A stretch of DNA of 47,974 nt from positions 1 through 47,974 of the forward strand of contig JAMPEW010000004.1 of NCBI GenBank assembly GCA_023664775.1. The letters run 5' to 3'. The stretch comes from Clostridium sp. GTDB lineage: Bacteria; Bacillota; Clostridia; Lachnospirales; Lachnospiraceae. Position numbers and translations under genes: made by a program. The notes beneath the pieces were generated by a model that saw nothing but the letters and a program-made list of their open reading frames with translations, did not search any database and was not told where the DNA came from. Shown here in pieces: positions 8,258 through 47,974 of the stretch. Every line of letters begins with the position of its first letter. The first letter of the stretch is position 1.

Positions 8258-8671
8258 AAGGGGCTGCCATAAAGATGACTTTAATTATTTGAAAATATTG
8301 TCATAGTTGATAAAATGTTGGTTATGTAATTTTCTTTACGTTTTCCAATAGGAATGGAAGTAATAACTTGATGATCGTTTTTAAAGCTTTTATCCTTTGT
8401 TCTAGCAACCATAAAAATCTTCTACTAATCATAGAAAGTAGAAAAAATAATATTTACGTGGTATAATATGCTATGTTGTTTATAAGCTTAAGAAAAGGTT
8501 ATAATATGAAAATTTTGTTTTTGTAAAAGAATTATGCAATGTTTTTTATAATTAAAATATGGGAAGATGATAAAAATTTTACGGCAATCAAGAAAAAATA
8601 TGTTTTAAAAGCGATTTTGAATATTCTGTTGTCGAGGAGACGTGACATGACTATGTAGCGGGGGTAAAAAA
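8258..8671 (+). other. A/T-rich intergenic region with candidate promoter
   Basis: No gene is seen in these 414 bases. The clearest signal is a promoter for the following restriction-modification operon: TTGTTT (8476-8481), a 17-bp spacer and TATAAT (8499-8504), giving a leader of about 160 nt. A second TATAAT (8462-8467) lacks a good -35. The abrupt rise in A/T content from about 8280 marks the left edge of the island. No convincing terminator follows yqeG and no direct repeats flank the island. Confidence 0.5.
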
Positions 8672-44536: not shown

Positions 44537-44548
44537 TAAGAAAAAAAG

Positions 44549-44587
44549 AAGCCGCATAAGGACTTATCTTATGTGGCTTTTTTTGTC
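44549..44587 (+). terminator. Rho-independent terminator of the rubrerythrin operon
   Basis: AAGCCGCATAAG (44549-44560) pairs with CTTATGTGGCTT (44568-44579) with a single G-T wobble and a 7-nt loop, followed by a run of T. Confidence 0.92.
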
Positions 44588-44594
44588 GCTCATC

Positions 44595-44651
44595 CATGGA
44601 AAATTGAAACGGCTTTAGTAAATAGGTAAAATATGTTAATAAAAAAGAAAA
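44595..44651 (+). repeat. Interspersed repeat, copy 1
   Basis: First of three copies of a unit that starts CATGGAAA and continues with TTGAAACGG, GTAAATAGGTA and AATATG. Read in frame it gives WKIETALVNR then stop, matching the peptide in the other two copies (47062-47106, 47847-47903). Copies 1 and 3 also share AATAAAAAAGAAAA at the right end. A little extra similarity on the left (GTCGCTCAT here, GTCGTTCAT in copy 2) suggests the unit was once longer. It lies directly after the rubrerythrin terminator and marks the left edge of the accessory region. Confidence 0.75.
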
Positions 44652-44830: not shown

Positions 44831-45286
44831 TTATAGCATACCCGATCCTGGTAGTGACCATGGAGGTAATTCGATAGTACATGAATTTATATTTACATAA
44901 GATGAGTCTGATAAATGTGTTTTTTTGTAAAATTGCTCTTTCCAATTATGTGCAAATGCCATAGTATTTAATTGTTCAGATTTACACCATCCAACAAAAT
45001 TGTAAGTATTAATGAATTCATTAAGTGTTGAATAGACAGCTAATTTGATGTCTTTACAATCATTTACTTCACGGATTGTTTTGGACATAACCAATTTTTT
45101 GAATGTTTTATATTTGTTTATTTCATCTTTTTCAATGGTATTTGTTTTAGATTTTAAATAATTATTGTTTAATACAACAGCAAATACAGGGATGTCTTTT
45201 GACAACGCATATTCGTATTCAATTTGTGTATAACTTTTTTGTGATTGAGGTTCAATAGATCCATAACGTCCACCAAGGATAAGCAT
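44831..45286 (-). pseudogene. 5'-truncated DUF4062 gene fragment
   Basis: The 151-residue frame begins MLILGGRYGSIEPQSQKSYTQIEYEYALSKDIPVFAVVL, which is the middle of a DUF4062 domain; the usual N-terminal beta strand and helices (about 70 residues, of the KVFISSTF type) are absent. There is no ribosome binding site before the ATG and an in-frame TAA occurs a few codons upstream, so this looks like a remnant. DUF4062 domains occur at the N-terminus of conflict/defence-type NTPase proteins. The break lies about 25-30 bp from the hicAB promoter, so arrival of that locus may have caused it. A shortened functional protein cannot be excluded. Confidence 0.7.
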
Positions 45287-45317: not shown

Positions 45318-45346
45318 TTGACATACGTATTAATACGTGCTATCTT
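45318..45346 (+). promoter_or_regulatory. hicAB promoter with palindromic operator
   Basis: TTGACA (45318-45323), a 17-bp spacer and TATCTT (45341-45346) form the promoter. Within the spacer is a perfect 14-bp palindrome, ACGTATTAATACGT (45325-45338). The DNA-binding antitoxin HicB probably binds here and represses its own operon, the usual toxin-antitoxin logic. Confidence 0.75.
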
Positions 45347-45368
45347 AATACAAAGAGGAGGGATGCAG

Positions 45369-45557
45369 ATGCCAATGACGCCGAAACAGATAATTAAGAT
45401 ACTTGAGGAAAATGGGTTTGTAGAAATTAGGCAAAATGGTTCGCATAAGTTTTTTGAAAATAAAGAGACGAATAAAAGGACTACGGTTCCTTATCACAGA
45501 AAGGATATTAAAAAAGGCTTGGAAAATGAAATACTTAAGCAGGCTGGATTAAAATAA
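45369..45557 (+). CDS. hicA: HicA-family mRNA interferase toxin
   Basis: A 62-residue HicA with a double-stranded-RNA-binding-like fold: TPKQIIKILEENGFVEIRQNGSHKFFEN carries the catalytic histidine H26 in GSHKFF, and TTVPYHRKDIKKGLENEILKQAGL is the standard ending. It cleaves mRNA when freed from HicB. Three starts compete: TTG at 45318 lies in the -35 box and is rejected; ATG 45363 sits inside the ribosome site; ATG 45369 is six bases from GAGGAGGG and is preferred. Confidence 0.92.
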   Translation: MPMTPKQIIKILEENGFVEIRQNGSHKFFENKETNKRTTVPYHRKDIKKGLENEILKQAGLK

Positions 45558-45598
45558 TTCGGTTTGCAATAATATATTTTTATCAGGAGGTACAATTT

Positions 45599-46003
45599 AT
45601 GAAAACAGAATTATTTTATCCCGCTGTATTTCAAACAGAAGACGATGGCGGGTTTTCGGTCTTTTTTCCAGACATTGACGGATGTAATACTTGTGGAGAT
45701 AATTTGAATGATGCATATGAAATGGCATCAGATGCATTAGGACTTGTATTATCATATATGGATGAAAATAATGAGATTATTCCAGAACCATCAACACCAA
45801 ATAATTTAGTTTTAGATGAAGGACAATTTGTTGTATTAATTAAATTTAACATGTTAGAATATCTTAAGAAAAACAATTCTAAATCTATTAAAAAAACACT
45901 AACAATTCCTGAATGGTTAAACGAAGAAGCACTACGGTGTAATATTAATTTTTCTCAAGCATTACAAGAGGTACTAATGGAAAAAATACAGGCTGTTAAA
46001 TAG
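45599..46003 (+). CDS. hicB: HicB-family antitoxin
   Basis: A 134-residue antitoxin. The N-terminal partial RNase H-like domain (YPAVFQTEDDGGFSVFFPDIDGCNTCGDNLNDAYEMA) neutralises HicA, and the C-terminal 40 residues (LTIPEWLNEEALRCNINFSQALQEVL) look like a ribbon-helix-helix DNA-binding unit that would recognise the palindrome in the promoter. CAGGAGG precedes the ATG, 41 bp after hicA. Both genes appear intact. Confidence 0.92.
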   Translation: MKTELFYPAVFQTEDDGGFSVFFPDIDGCNTCGDNLNDAYEMASDALGLVLSYMDENNEIIPEPSTPNNLVLDEGQFVVLIKFNMLEYLKKNNSKSIKKTLTIPEWLNEEALRCNINFSQALQEVLMEKIQAVK

Positions 46004-46202: not shown

Positions 46203-46871
46203 ATGACAGAGGAATCAAAAGAAGCATTAAAAAAGATTAAAGAAGCATTAAATGATGGTAATGTTAAGAATGTAGGCATGTCTGATTGGACAACGGCAAT
46301 GGGAGGGACGCCTCTTGGATTGGCTTTTTCGGAAGAAGAAAAAACTGATTATAATAAAGAACAATCAGAGGAGAAAGAGTGTGATGAAGAAATAGATATA
46401 GAAAATATGGAATTTAGATATGGTTGTATAAGTGATGAGAGATGTGCAGAGATTAACAGTTGGCGCATACCTGATCCGTATAGGCATGGAGAAAAATATG
46501 ATGCTGATGGGGATTATTTAGTTACAAATGAAGATGAATCAATTCTTTTTATCTGGGCATTTATGCCAAGAGCAGATGAAAGAGAATATTATAAAGATGC
46601 ATATATGCTGATATATAAAAATGAGTATTACTATATATATATTAATGATGGACTGCCTGTTGGGCATTATGAAGAAAGAAACGGAGTACAATATTGGGTT
46701 GATAAAATAGATTTTTTGTATAGTGAGGCTATAGAAAAAAGTCAGGAAAAATCAACGATATTAAAGTTATTAAAGCGTTTATATCAAAGGTTTAGAGAAT
46801 GTTTTAAACGAACAAGAGGACCAAAGCCTGTATATGAATTTACATTTTATTATAATGGGGAGGAAATATAA
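46203..46871 (+). CDS. Cassette-family protein, intact copy (unknown function)
   Basis: A 222-residue protein that I do not recognise. It starts with a short helix (ESKEALKKIKEAL) and an SDW motif, then an acidic linker, a core with FRYGCISDERCAEI, DPYRHGEKYDADGDYLVTNEDESILFIW and an aromatic-rich YKNEYYYIYIND strand, and ends YEFTFYYNGEEI. There is no signal peptide, membrane segment or catalytic motif. A homologous but frameshifted gene follows at 47177-47783, and N-terminal stubs of the family at 46872 and 47783. TAGGAGGT precedes the ATG. Small acidic paralogues in tandem resemble immunity-gene arrays of polymorphic toxins, but no toxin is seen, so that is only a guess. Confidence 0.7.
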   Translation: MTEESKEALKKIKEALNDGNVKNVGMSDWTTAMGGTPLGLAFSEEEKTDYNKEQSEEKECDEEIDIENMEFRYGCISDERCAEINSWRIPDPYRHGEKYDADGDYLVTNEDESILFIWAFMPRADEREYYKDAYMLIYKNEYYYIYINDGLPVGHYEERNGVQYWVDKIDFLYSEAIEKSQEKSTILKLLKRLYQRFRECFKRTRGPKPVYEFTFYYNGEEI

Positions 46872-46970
46872 ATGGATAATTATGAGGTGGCGCTTAGCAA
46901 AATAAAATATGAGTTGTCATGTAGCAATGGACCAAGTATGTCTGATTGGATAGAAAGGTGTTTAGCGTAA
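46872..46970 (+). pseudogene. N-terminal stub of the cassette family
   Basis: A 32-codon frame begins at the base right after the stop of the preceding gene, using GGGGAGGAAATATAA as its ribosome site. It reads EVALSKIKYEL then SMSDWIERC, matching the N-terminal helix and SDW motif of the cassette proteins, and then stops. It is best read as what remains of a tandem copy after deletion of the rest. Confidence 0.55.
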
Positions 46971-47015
46971 CAGTGGACATGCAGAGTGAACCGGAATGTG
47001 TGGAGGCGGATTATA

Positions 47016-47093
47016 ATGGGAATTAAAAAGTGTCGTTTGTGCAAAAAAAGTGTCGTTCATGCATGGAAAGTTGAAACGGCTTTGGTAAATTAG
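47016..47093 (+). other. 25-codon ORF running into repeat copy 2
   Basis: ATG 47016 has GGAGG 8-12 bases before it. The frame reads KKCRLCKKSVVHAWKVETALVN then stop: a CxxC pair followed by the repeat-encoded peptide. A short tandem duplication (AAAAAGTGTCGTT at about 47025 and 47046) lies within it. It may be a fusion remnant rather than a functional peptide. Confidence 0.35.
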
Positions 47094-47106
47094 GTAGAAT
47101 ATGTTA
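47062..47106 (+). repeat. Interspersed repeat, copy 2
   Basis: Second copy of the CATGGAAAGTTGAAACGG unit. It encodes WKVETALVN and ends one codon earlier than the others because AATTAG replaces AATAGG. Homology ends soon after GAATATGTTA. It separates the stub at 46872 from the frameshifted cassette gene at 47177. Confidence 0.75.
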
Positions 47107-47176
47107 TAGATGATTGAAGTAAAATGAATGAATCTTCAAATATGAGGGTTAAAAATATTATATGAGGAGAAACATT

Positions 47177-47783
47177 ATGAATAATCTAGAAAGGTCAGAA
47201 AGAGCAAAGAAGGCTCTTGAACACATAAAAAGAACACTAGAAAATGATAAAGAAACAAAAACTTCTGATTGGTTGCCGTTATTTGGTGCTGGAGGACCTC
47301 CAAATAGTGGATATCATGGTGGAAAATTTAGATATGGATTTATAAGTAAAAAAAGGTGTGAAGAAATATGCAAAATGAAAATATGTGATCCATATGGAAA
47401 TGCCCCATATTTTGATGCAAATGGGGAATATTTTGTGGCAAATAAAGACGAGTCGCTTCTTTCTCTGTCACGCTTTCTCACCAAGAAATGATATGCGTGA
47501 TACAGATTTGCATGAAATTTTCTTGTTTATTATTGGAAATGATTTTTATTTTATTAAATATGAAAACCATGAGATTTACGATGAAGAAAGGAAAGGGGTA
47601 ATGTATCGTGTTGAAACTATAAATATTTGCAAAAATGAATTTATTGATAAAAGAAACGATAAAGAGTATTTACTTAGTAATTTGAAAACCATGATTTCTA
47701 AAAATGAAGAGAATTCAGTATGGGTTCCAAATTTTAAAAGAGTATATGAATTTACATTTTATTATAATGGGGAGAAAATTTAA
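47177..47783 (+). pseudogene. Cassette-family gene, frameshifted copy
   Basis: Two overlapping frames together make one homologue of the 46203 gene. The first starts at ATG 47177 (GAGGAGA upstream; an in-frame ATG at 47162 overlaps that site) and carries SDW, FRYGFISKKRCEEI, DPYG and YFDANGEYFVANKDESLL, then runs off at about 47491. The second frame, shifted by +1, continues from about 47460 with HAFSPRNDMRDTDLHEIFLFIIGNDFYFI to YEFTFYYNGEKI at 47783. The junction lies in CTTCTTTCTCTG near 47457-47470, where a single-base insertion (or two-base loss) would explain it. A real disruption, slippage-driven on/off switching, or a sequencing error are all possible. Confidence 0.75.
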
Positions 47784-47881
47784 TGAATGGTGAAGATGAA
47801 AAAGAATTAGAACGGGCATTAAAGAAAATAAAAATACCCAAATCTACATGGAAAGTTGAAACGGTTTTGGTAAATAGGTAG
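47783..47881 (+). pseudogene. Second N-terminal stub fused to repeat copy 3
   Basis: ATG 47783 overlaps the stop of the preceding gene as TAATG, with GGGGAG upstream. The 32 codons read ELERALKKIKIPK (the family N-terminal helix), then STWKVETVLVNR and stop. The junction occurs where the family SDW motif should be, and the rest is supplied by repeat copy 3. This parallels the stub at 46872. Confidence 0.55.
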
Positions 47882-47903
47882 AATATGCTAATAAAAAAGA
47901 AAA
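47847..47903 (+). repeat. Interspersed repeat, copy 3
   Basis: Third copy of the CATGGAAAGTTGAAACGG unit, here encoding WKVETVLVNR and a stop. It shares GTAAATAGGTAGAATATG and AATAAAAAAGAAAA with copy 1. It lies between the stub at 47783 and the next start codon at 47967. Confidence 0.75.
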
Positions 47904-47966
47904 TACATAAAAATAAGAATAAAAATAGATGAAATTTTAATCAGCAAAAAGAAAAGAGGTATAAAA

Positions 47967-47974
47967 ATGGCATT
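47967..47974 (+). CDS. Start of a further gene, cut by the window edge
   Basis: AAAGAGGT followed seven bases later by ATGGCATT. Its spacing after repeat copy 3 (about 64 bp) resembles that of the 47177 gene after copy 2 (about 71 bp), so it is probably the next cassette. Only the first two codons are visible. Confidence 0.4.

Follow-up and report, generated by a model that had tools for sequence, protein, structure and literature searches.

The type VII secretion systems of firmicutes that come with esaG or tipC immunity genes carry the warheads of their toxins at the C-terminal end. Their immunity genes occur as tandem paralogues that expand and shrink by recombination (PMC9484751). In canonical polymorphic toxin systems, as a large survey describes them, the order toxin then immunity predominates, and strings of immunity genes at the 3′ end are taken as remnants of replaced tips (PMC3482391). 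A reversed arrangement has already been published for TslA/TilA, a type VII-secreted lipase system of Staphylococcus aureus with upstream immunity copies (PMC10730906). Here we analyze a tandem array of small genes at the right end of a 47,974-nucleotide stretch of DNA from Clostridium sp. (Lachnospiraceae; assembly GCA_023664775.1, contig JAMPEW010000004.1, positions 1 to 47,974 of the forward strand), which we call the window. The original prediction described the array as copies of a single unrecognized gene cassette decaying by frameshift and deletion. Judged from sequence, the array is quite probably the immunity end of a polymorphic toxin system built in reverse.

Like canonical polymorphic toxin systems (PMC3482391), which combine a constant export part, a variable warhead and a cognate immunity protein, the locus joins a constant trafficking part to a variable warhead, and it holds orphan modules and strings of related, putative immunity genes. 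The canonical order of toxin then immunity gene, with strings at the 3′ end and the warhead C-terminal, is mirrored: a small gene precedes the toxin gene, and the variable part of the toxin is N-terminal. The number of tandem paralogues changes by recombination, as for esaG and tipC, but these belong to type VII systems (PMC9484751). TslA is also exported by a type VII system, with helical partner proteins, whereas the window system has an RTX protein with HlyB/HlyD-type genes. It differs from TslA/TilA in three further ways. The 222-residue protein of the array (ImmA) is not lipoprotein-like, no lipase match was found in the two kinds of toxin head (types A and B), and truncated toxin heads are retained between the immunity genes. 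Among the literature matches listed for the terms we used, none describes a clostridial polymorphic toxin of the RTX kind that is secreted by type I and has its immunity genes upstream.

The window makes up the beginning of a 117,946-base contig from a 2.6-Mb genome (G000). Its right edge coincides with the start of a scaffold gap of 100 N (L008 3976–4075; contig coordinates past the gap are the L008 position plus 43,999), and the array extends further. On the forward strand an intact gene comes first, then a stub and a repeat region; a frameshifted homologue is next, followed by another stub and repeat region, and the array reaches the edge with a start codon at 47967. The intact 222-residue gene (ImmA-1, 46203–46871), a putative orphan immunity gene, and its homologue with a frameshift near the middle (ImmA-2, 47177–47783, in two frames, 47162–47491 and 47385–47783) are both present as predicted. 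In a related genome, Lachnospiraceae bacterium UBA7076 (G034, locus L083), the gene that ends at the toxin start encodes a protein 79% identical to ImmA-1 (ratio of nonsynonymous to synonymous substitution rates, dN/dS, 0.33). The stretch 47036–47783 is 83% identical to L083 6119–6857, which holds an intact 201-residue relative.

The stubs had been read as N-terminal pieces of the 222-residue gene that begin exactly at the stop of the preceding gene. Stub 1 (46872–46970, forward strand) does begin right after that stop, whereas stub 2 (47783–47881, forward strand) overlaps it. The identity of stub 1 is a different one. Positions 46209–46954 align with L083 7856–8598, the last family member of G034, and cross the toxin start at 8516. 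Because this alignment runs on past the toxin start for 83 bases, stub 1 is the head of a type A RTX toxin gene, fused to the sequence that follows. It agrees with the L083 toxin start at 75 of 87 nucleotides; the next-best ungapped match in that locus reaches 43 of 87. The case for stub 2 as a toxin head is weaker: about 22 codons resemble one before the frame runs into the next promoter. The same stub stands after broken ImmA copies in a second relative, Clostridium sp. NALB_7863_23 (G014, locus L084).

A second putative immunity gene, ImmB, also contributes pieces. Positions 46952–47029 (forward strand) hold the 3′ end of ImmB and then the opening codons of a toxin gene of type B, whose ATG is at 47016. 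The stretch 46952–47106 is 95% identical to L084 6243–6396, which covers the ImmB end, the toxin start and the next promoter in G014, and 46972–47026 is 96% identical to the sequence preceding the window genome's own toxin gene. There is indeed a start codon at the edge, but it belongs to a different gene than predicted. Since 47742–47974 aligns (97% identity) with L084 5649–5882, a stretch in which the end of a family member is followed by stub 2, a promoter and the beginning of ImmB, positions 47967–47974 (forward strand) are the start of ImmB, cut by the gap; the ImmB 3′ end and the type B RTX toxin come after it. The idea that all pieces stem from one cassette gene is not supported. The repeated blocks match each other, and blocks of two other genomes, over hundreds of bases, and for this reason the array is more than a chance resemblance.

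A large secreted-protein gene, which the original prediction proposed to look for beside such arrays, lies directly after the gap. This RTX protein gene starts at contig position 48119, is broken by a second gap of 100 N, and is followed by HlyB-like ABC transporter and HlyD-like genes. Pfam models on proteins of the locus recognize RTX repeats (PF00353, E value 8.6e-43 in the G034 toxin and 6.5e-8 in the part of the G000 toxin before the gap), an ABC transporter with a C39-like domain and HlyD. We predict that the RTX protein is exported by the adjoining HlyB/HlyD-type exporter. The type A toxin of G034 and G014 follows the 222-residue family; the type B toxin of G000 apparently follows ImmB. 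In another locus (L085) the gene directly preceding a type B toxin encodes a 149-residue ImmB relative that shares 62% identity with the G014 fragment. A record labeled as a Lactococcus plantarum metagenome-assembled genome (L098) has three tandem genes of 151–155 residues before a related toxin, and these genes are weakly related to the L085 one. Residues 386–404 and 447–470 of the type A toxin are hydrophobic and could serve entry. A toxin fragment in L086 (1–3489, forward strand) has a head that matches type B toxin residues 270–323 five times in a row. Matches to the conserved RTX part occur in 30 of the 37 genus genomes, mostly over short stretches; 12 matches above 130 bits, in nine of these genomes, are large RTX proteins.

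The ImmA family is rare. It occurs in three of the 37 genus genomes and three of 61 genomes searched as relatives (the window genome included in both counts); of 392 genomes drawn from the order, only the window genome has it. There were no relatives among 591 genome-contig and 323 viral-contig candidate stretches and no match in the plasmids or phages searched. That the 222-residue protein has no named family was borne out: searches of Pfam, NCBIfam, PADLOC and PHROGs gave no match within the limits applied, and the best hit in the PDB was 0.069 by phmmer, with none by profile. Matches of fragments or relatives to Cas13e, DevR, CowN and BBH37 were weak, partial and under curated cut-offs, and we set them aside. 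The homologues are not isolated single genes but stand in arrays, directly upstream of an RTX protein in both relatives. G034 has three in a row (201, 231 and 231 residues), the last of which ends at the base preceding the start of a 1,467-residue RTX protein. In G014 broken ImmA members and ImmB copies precede a 197-residue member that overlaps the RTX start by four bases. We read the 222-residue protein as an orphan cytosolic immunity protein.

The original prediction had offered orphan immunity and antigenic arrays side by side, and of the two orphan immunity is the better reading. One could argue that the copies are surface cassettes serving antigenic variation, as they are tandem, recombining and unequal. 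Yet none of the four intact ImmA proteins has a hydrophobic segment in a Kyte-Doolittle scan (no signal-peptide predictor was run), and the units contain promoter-like sequence and toxin heads. An antigenic array is therefore very improbable. A double-glycine leader that we had considered for ImmA was dropped, as the glycines are not conserved.

The reading as a reversed toxin system draws on comparisons of the toxins themselves. Between G034 and G000, in windows of 50 residues, identity is 16–38% over residues 1–500 and 78–96% over residues 501–900. The toxins of G034 and G014 are distinguished mainly by their first 150 residues, with a dN/dS of 0.36 there and of 0.13 over residues 151–490. 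Along the length of seven toxin pairs, three show a sharp change of identity, as expected of a swapped 5′ end. L090 and L091 are 98–100% identical over residues 101–650 and 74–82% before, and the genes next to them upstream share 40% identity. L102 and L105 are 92–98% identical over residues 301–600 and 12–30% over residues 1–250; their adjacent genes are 48% identical, and genes further upstream, agr-like as judged by reading, are 87–96% identical. L083 and L084 are 36–68% identical over residues 1–150 and 78–96% after, with adjacent genes 34% identical. Where the exchange is visible, the immunity-like gene and the toxin head thus change together, and the rest of the toxin stays constant: it is the canonical module swap in mirror image.

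Our survey of toxin loci asked which end holds tandem genes. The conserved RTX part gave 53 named loci, of which 36, together with seven genus loci, were taken first (43 loci); 38 qualified by having the toxin start and at least 600 bases upstream, and 24 had more than 1,500 bases downstream. A same-strand gene lies within 60 bp upstream of the toxin in 29 of the 38, and at least two paralogous small genes stand in a row directly upstream in 10; among the next genes downstream there was no paralogous pair in any of the 24. The 17 loci first left out (L118, L120–L135) are mostly from other phyla, with three clostridial records (L126, L129, L130). Five of them have no open reading frame above 400 residues at the match, and 11 of the remaining 12 qualified, with a close upstream gene in 6 of 11, a tandem upstream pair in 1 of 11 (L125) and a downstream pair in 0 of 8. 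The totals are 35 of 49, 11 of 49 and 0 of 32. These are rough counts made without a random-gene control: they include near-duplicates (L080, L082), a spurious reading frame masks three copies in L081, genes of at least 450 residues were not counted as tandem (which omits the L116 pair), and the window's own locus is excluded for its gap.

As far as tested, the kind of upstream gene seems to fit the kind of toxin head. SUKH proteins are an immunity superfamily. In L089 two related genes precede the toxin; the nearer matches SMI1_KNR4 (SUKH; E 3.8e-9), and the two share 35% identity. Genes that look lipoprotein-like from their N-termini precede toxins with lipase-like heads; L091 has a run of at least six. 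Among these heads, that of the L076 toxin (the L106 locus) has a match to Mbeg1-like (E 7e-13); the other lipase-like heads were judged by their first residues. A second group of toxins, with a signal-like start, has one to three genes of MSLNTAFKKVYGE-type or related to it upstream in six of seven loci (L070, L077, L078, L080, L081 and L082, with none in L079). The six distinct toxins of this group have a D…ExK pattern in the head that recalls PD-(D/E)xK nucleases; Pfam gave no match for the two of these heads that were tested. The label DUF4304 for the MSLNTAFKKVYGE family was not used, as the one member tested had no Pfam match.

The same data bear on the possibility that the 222-residue proteins serve the RTX protein as chaperones or export partners and are not immunity proteins. 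Their genes adjoin the toxin start, and a segment of about 30 N-terminal residues (46203–46310; toxin heads L083 8516–8650 and L084 8513–8650) has a pattern of IK, G and SDW in common with the toxin head. In 7 of 16 pairs of ImmA and toxin-head N-termini the match beats all 1000 shuffles, and in 8 of 16 none or one in 1000 is as good. An export partner should nevertheless track the constant export part, whereas it is with the toxin head that the adjacent gene varies, the remainder of the toxin staying similar. Other toxins that share this constant part have SUKH-type or lipoprotein-like genes in that position, and the orphan copies would be without obvious use for an export partner. We consider this explanation unlikely.

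The repeat that was predicted between the units does recur, as a promoter-like region. In its first copy, two 14-bp direct repeats GTGTCGTTYRTGCA with a 20-bp period (47030–47063, forward strand) are followed by TTGAAA-18-TAGAAT (47071–47100, forward strand). In the second copy, which precedes the next unit, the direct repeats are lost and TTGAAA-17-TAGAAT remains (47856–47884, forward strand). A relic of the unit promoter also stands just after the rubredoxin gene (44584–44651, forward strand), with a degenerate half of the direct repeat, TTGAAA at 44604–44609 and TAAAAT at 44627–44632. Its positions 44595–44651 are 91% identical to 47847–47903 and to promoter copies of G014.

The double direct repeat has 42 sites in 4 of the 37 genus genomes, six of them in G000, and none in a reversed control. 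In all four genomes one site has a histidine kinase-like gene on one side and, on the other, a short gene that is orthologous among them. The G000 copy of this short gene is a LytTR protein (E 1.6e-8); the other three were matched by eye. From the spacing and these neighbors, the direct repeat of the unit promoter is probably bound by a LytTR regulator. An agr-like cluster in G000 (L074, G000:C3, 2068–6485) comprises a LytTR protein and kinase-like and response regulator-like genes, with the repeat between a kinase gene and the LytTR gene. Other sites precede MSLNTAFKKVYGE genes (L070, L143, L156), a repeated gene pair whose starts look signal-like (L138) and operons of WXG-like appearance (L142, L158). 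A further site (L071, G000:C6, 4697–7746) is followed by two small genes, a lipoprotein-like gene and a 520-residue Mbeg1-like lipase (E 1.2e-10), an arrangement that resembles a TslA-type locus. In G014 a short reading frame after a direct repeat (end of open reading frame L162 4377–4562) might encode a signal peptide.

The direct repeats could also mark the ends of a mobile element, with the array as its debris. The repeat recurs, seven of the G034 sites lie within 300 bases of contig ends, where the following sequence cannot be read, and L073 and L155 have repeats that do not point at a neighboring gene. In addition, the entire 11-kb locus is absent from a fourth genome, G036. There, the rubrerythrin-rubredoxin and MoxR-like genes that flank the island adjoin; homology between G000 and G036 stops at window position 44546 and starts again at contig position 55565, and G036 has 37 bases between these two points. 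Against this, most other loci that were read have the repeat just upstream of a gene and in its orientation, and in all four repeat-bearing genomes it precedes the orthologous LytTR-type gene. No transposase was recognized by eye among the reading frames beside 24 loci, without a profile search and without a search for inverted ends. After reading these 24 loci we ranked insertion-sequence ends low, and mobile-element debris seems to us still less likely than the export partner.

The adjoining flanks of G036 do indicate that gain or loss concerns the island as a whole. At this one site, three related genomes differ in how many of the same units they hold and in what mixture, and the fourth is empty, which agrees with the predicted expansion and contraction by recombination. 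Two further features lie within the island. A HicA/HicB toxin-antitoxin pair (45318–46003, forward strand; HicA E 3.2e-21, HicB-like E 1.4e-12) sits between the first promoter relic and the array, and HicB and the following ImmA are also together in G014. A fragment matching DUF4062 (44831–45286, reverse strand; E 8.8e-6) is apparently a partial gene.

What the toxin heads do is suggested by a profile of eight of them, for which the only PDB match below 0.01 is an ADP-ribosyl cyclase toxin (9ro8, E 1.3e-4). In seven of the eight rows there is a glutamate at the aligned position, which, from the alignment and by comparison with CD38, we take to be the catalytic residue. The matched structure is that of Tac1, an antibacterial ADP-ribosyl cyclase toxin for which Glu573 is named; Tac1 makes up the C-terminal portion of an LXG protein whose partner is Imm74, and the main text of the paper does not contain the words RTX or type I secretion (PMC12356396). 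ImmA, by contrast, matches no Pfam family. The Pfam ADP-ribosyl cyclase model stayed under its cut-off, both for one of the eight heads (0.051) and for the G013 toxin in a genome search (0.157), which gave equally weak matches at other places and in 3 of 14 control genomes. The L083 head and the L098 head, each on its own, did not match 9ro8. A match of the toxin head to phrog_30679 (E 0.011) was set aside. We lean moderately toward a warhead that is an ADP-ribosyl cyclase-like, NAD(P)+-degrading domain.

Several of our findings do not sit easily with this picture. As for the warhead, leaving out the two C-type heads (L087, L119) keeps 9ro8 first but with an E value of 0.017, these two heads by themselves place it second (E 0.57), and a profile of the two type A heads has no PDB match. 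The aligned glutamate is missing in one of the eight rows, the tryptophan of the active-site motif is present in two, and the head profile found the head in one of the 392 genomes of the order, the window's own. As for the exchange, the other four of the seven toxin pairs have diverged throughout, too far to reveal a swap. In 9 of the 38 loci (14 of 49 overall) no gene on the same strand lies within 60 bp upstream. ImmB before the G000 toxin can be read at its two ends only, the rest being inside the gap. The orphan copies are broken in G014, and the dN/dS of the broken window copy (0.38–0.39) is close to that of the intact one (0.33). Because intact and broken copies have such similar values, a protective role of the orphans, or selection to keep them, is not demonstrated. 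Finally, the resemblance between the N-terminus of ImmA and the toxin head is not accounted for by plain immunity; a recombination block or a docking segment is a possible cause.

If the array is the immunity end of a reversed toxin system, its history could be as follows. The toxin would be an RTX protein with an HlyB/HlyD-type exporter, and because its variable warhead is N-terminal and its constant secretion part C-terminal, the cognate immunity gene would stand 5′ of the toxin and read into it. A new immunity gene and warhead would be recombined into the 5′ end, and the old module, made up of promoter, immunity gene and truncated toxin head, would be left upstream. Recurrent replacement and tandem duplication would build the array, and copies no longer needed would decay. 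With the warhead N-terminal, immunity genes and orphan modules would thus accumulate at the 5′ end.

With confidence a little above even, we extend this to a class of type I-secreted, RTX-tailed antibacterial toxins in clostridial gut bacteria. Such toxins would have exchangeable N-terminal warheads (cyclase, lipase, nuclease and others) and 5′ strings of immunity genes, a mirror of the contact-dependent inhibition (CDI) and Rhs systems. In this genus a LytTR quorum regulator would co-activate the units and control other antagonism genes as well. The template of the large polymorphic-toxin survey takes the C-terminal-most domain as the toxin and the N-terminal domains as trafficking domains (PMC3482391). 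Reversed RTX-tailed weapons may be missed because this template puts the toxin at the C-terminus.

If our reading is true, gut Lachnospiraceae and related clostridia would have one more export route in their antagonism arsenal. It would also provide a clean test of the idea that orphan modules accumulate at the operon end set by the polarity of the protein. The same upstream position holds many uncharacterized immunity candidates. For the bacteria themselves, the array suggests that gut bacteria exchange the front end of a weapon together with its antidote.

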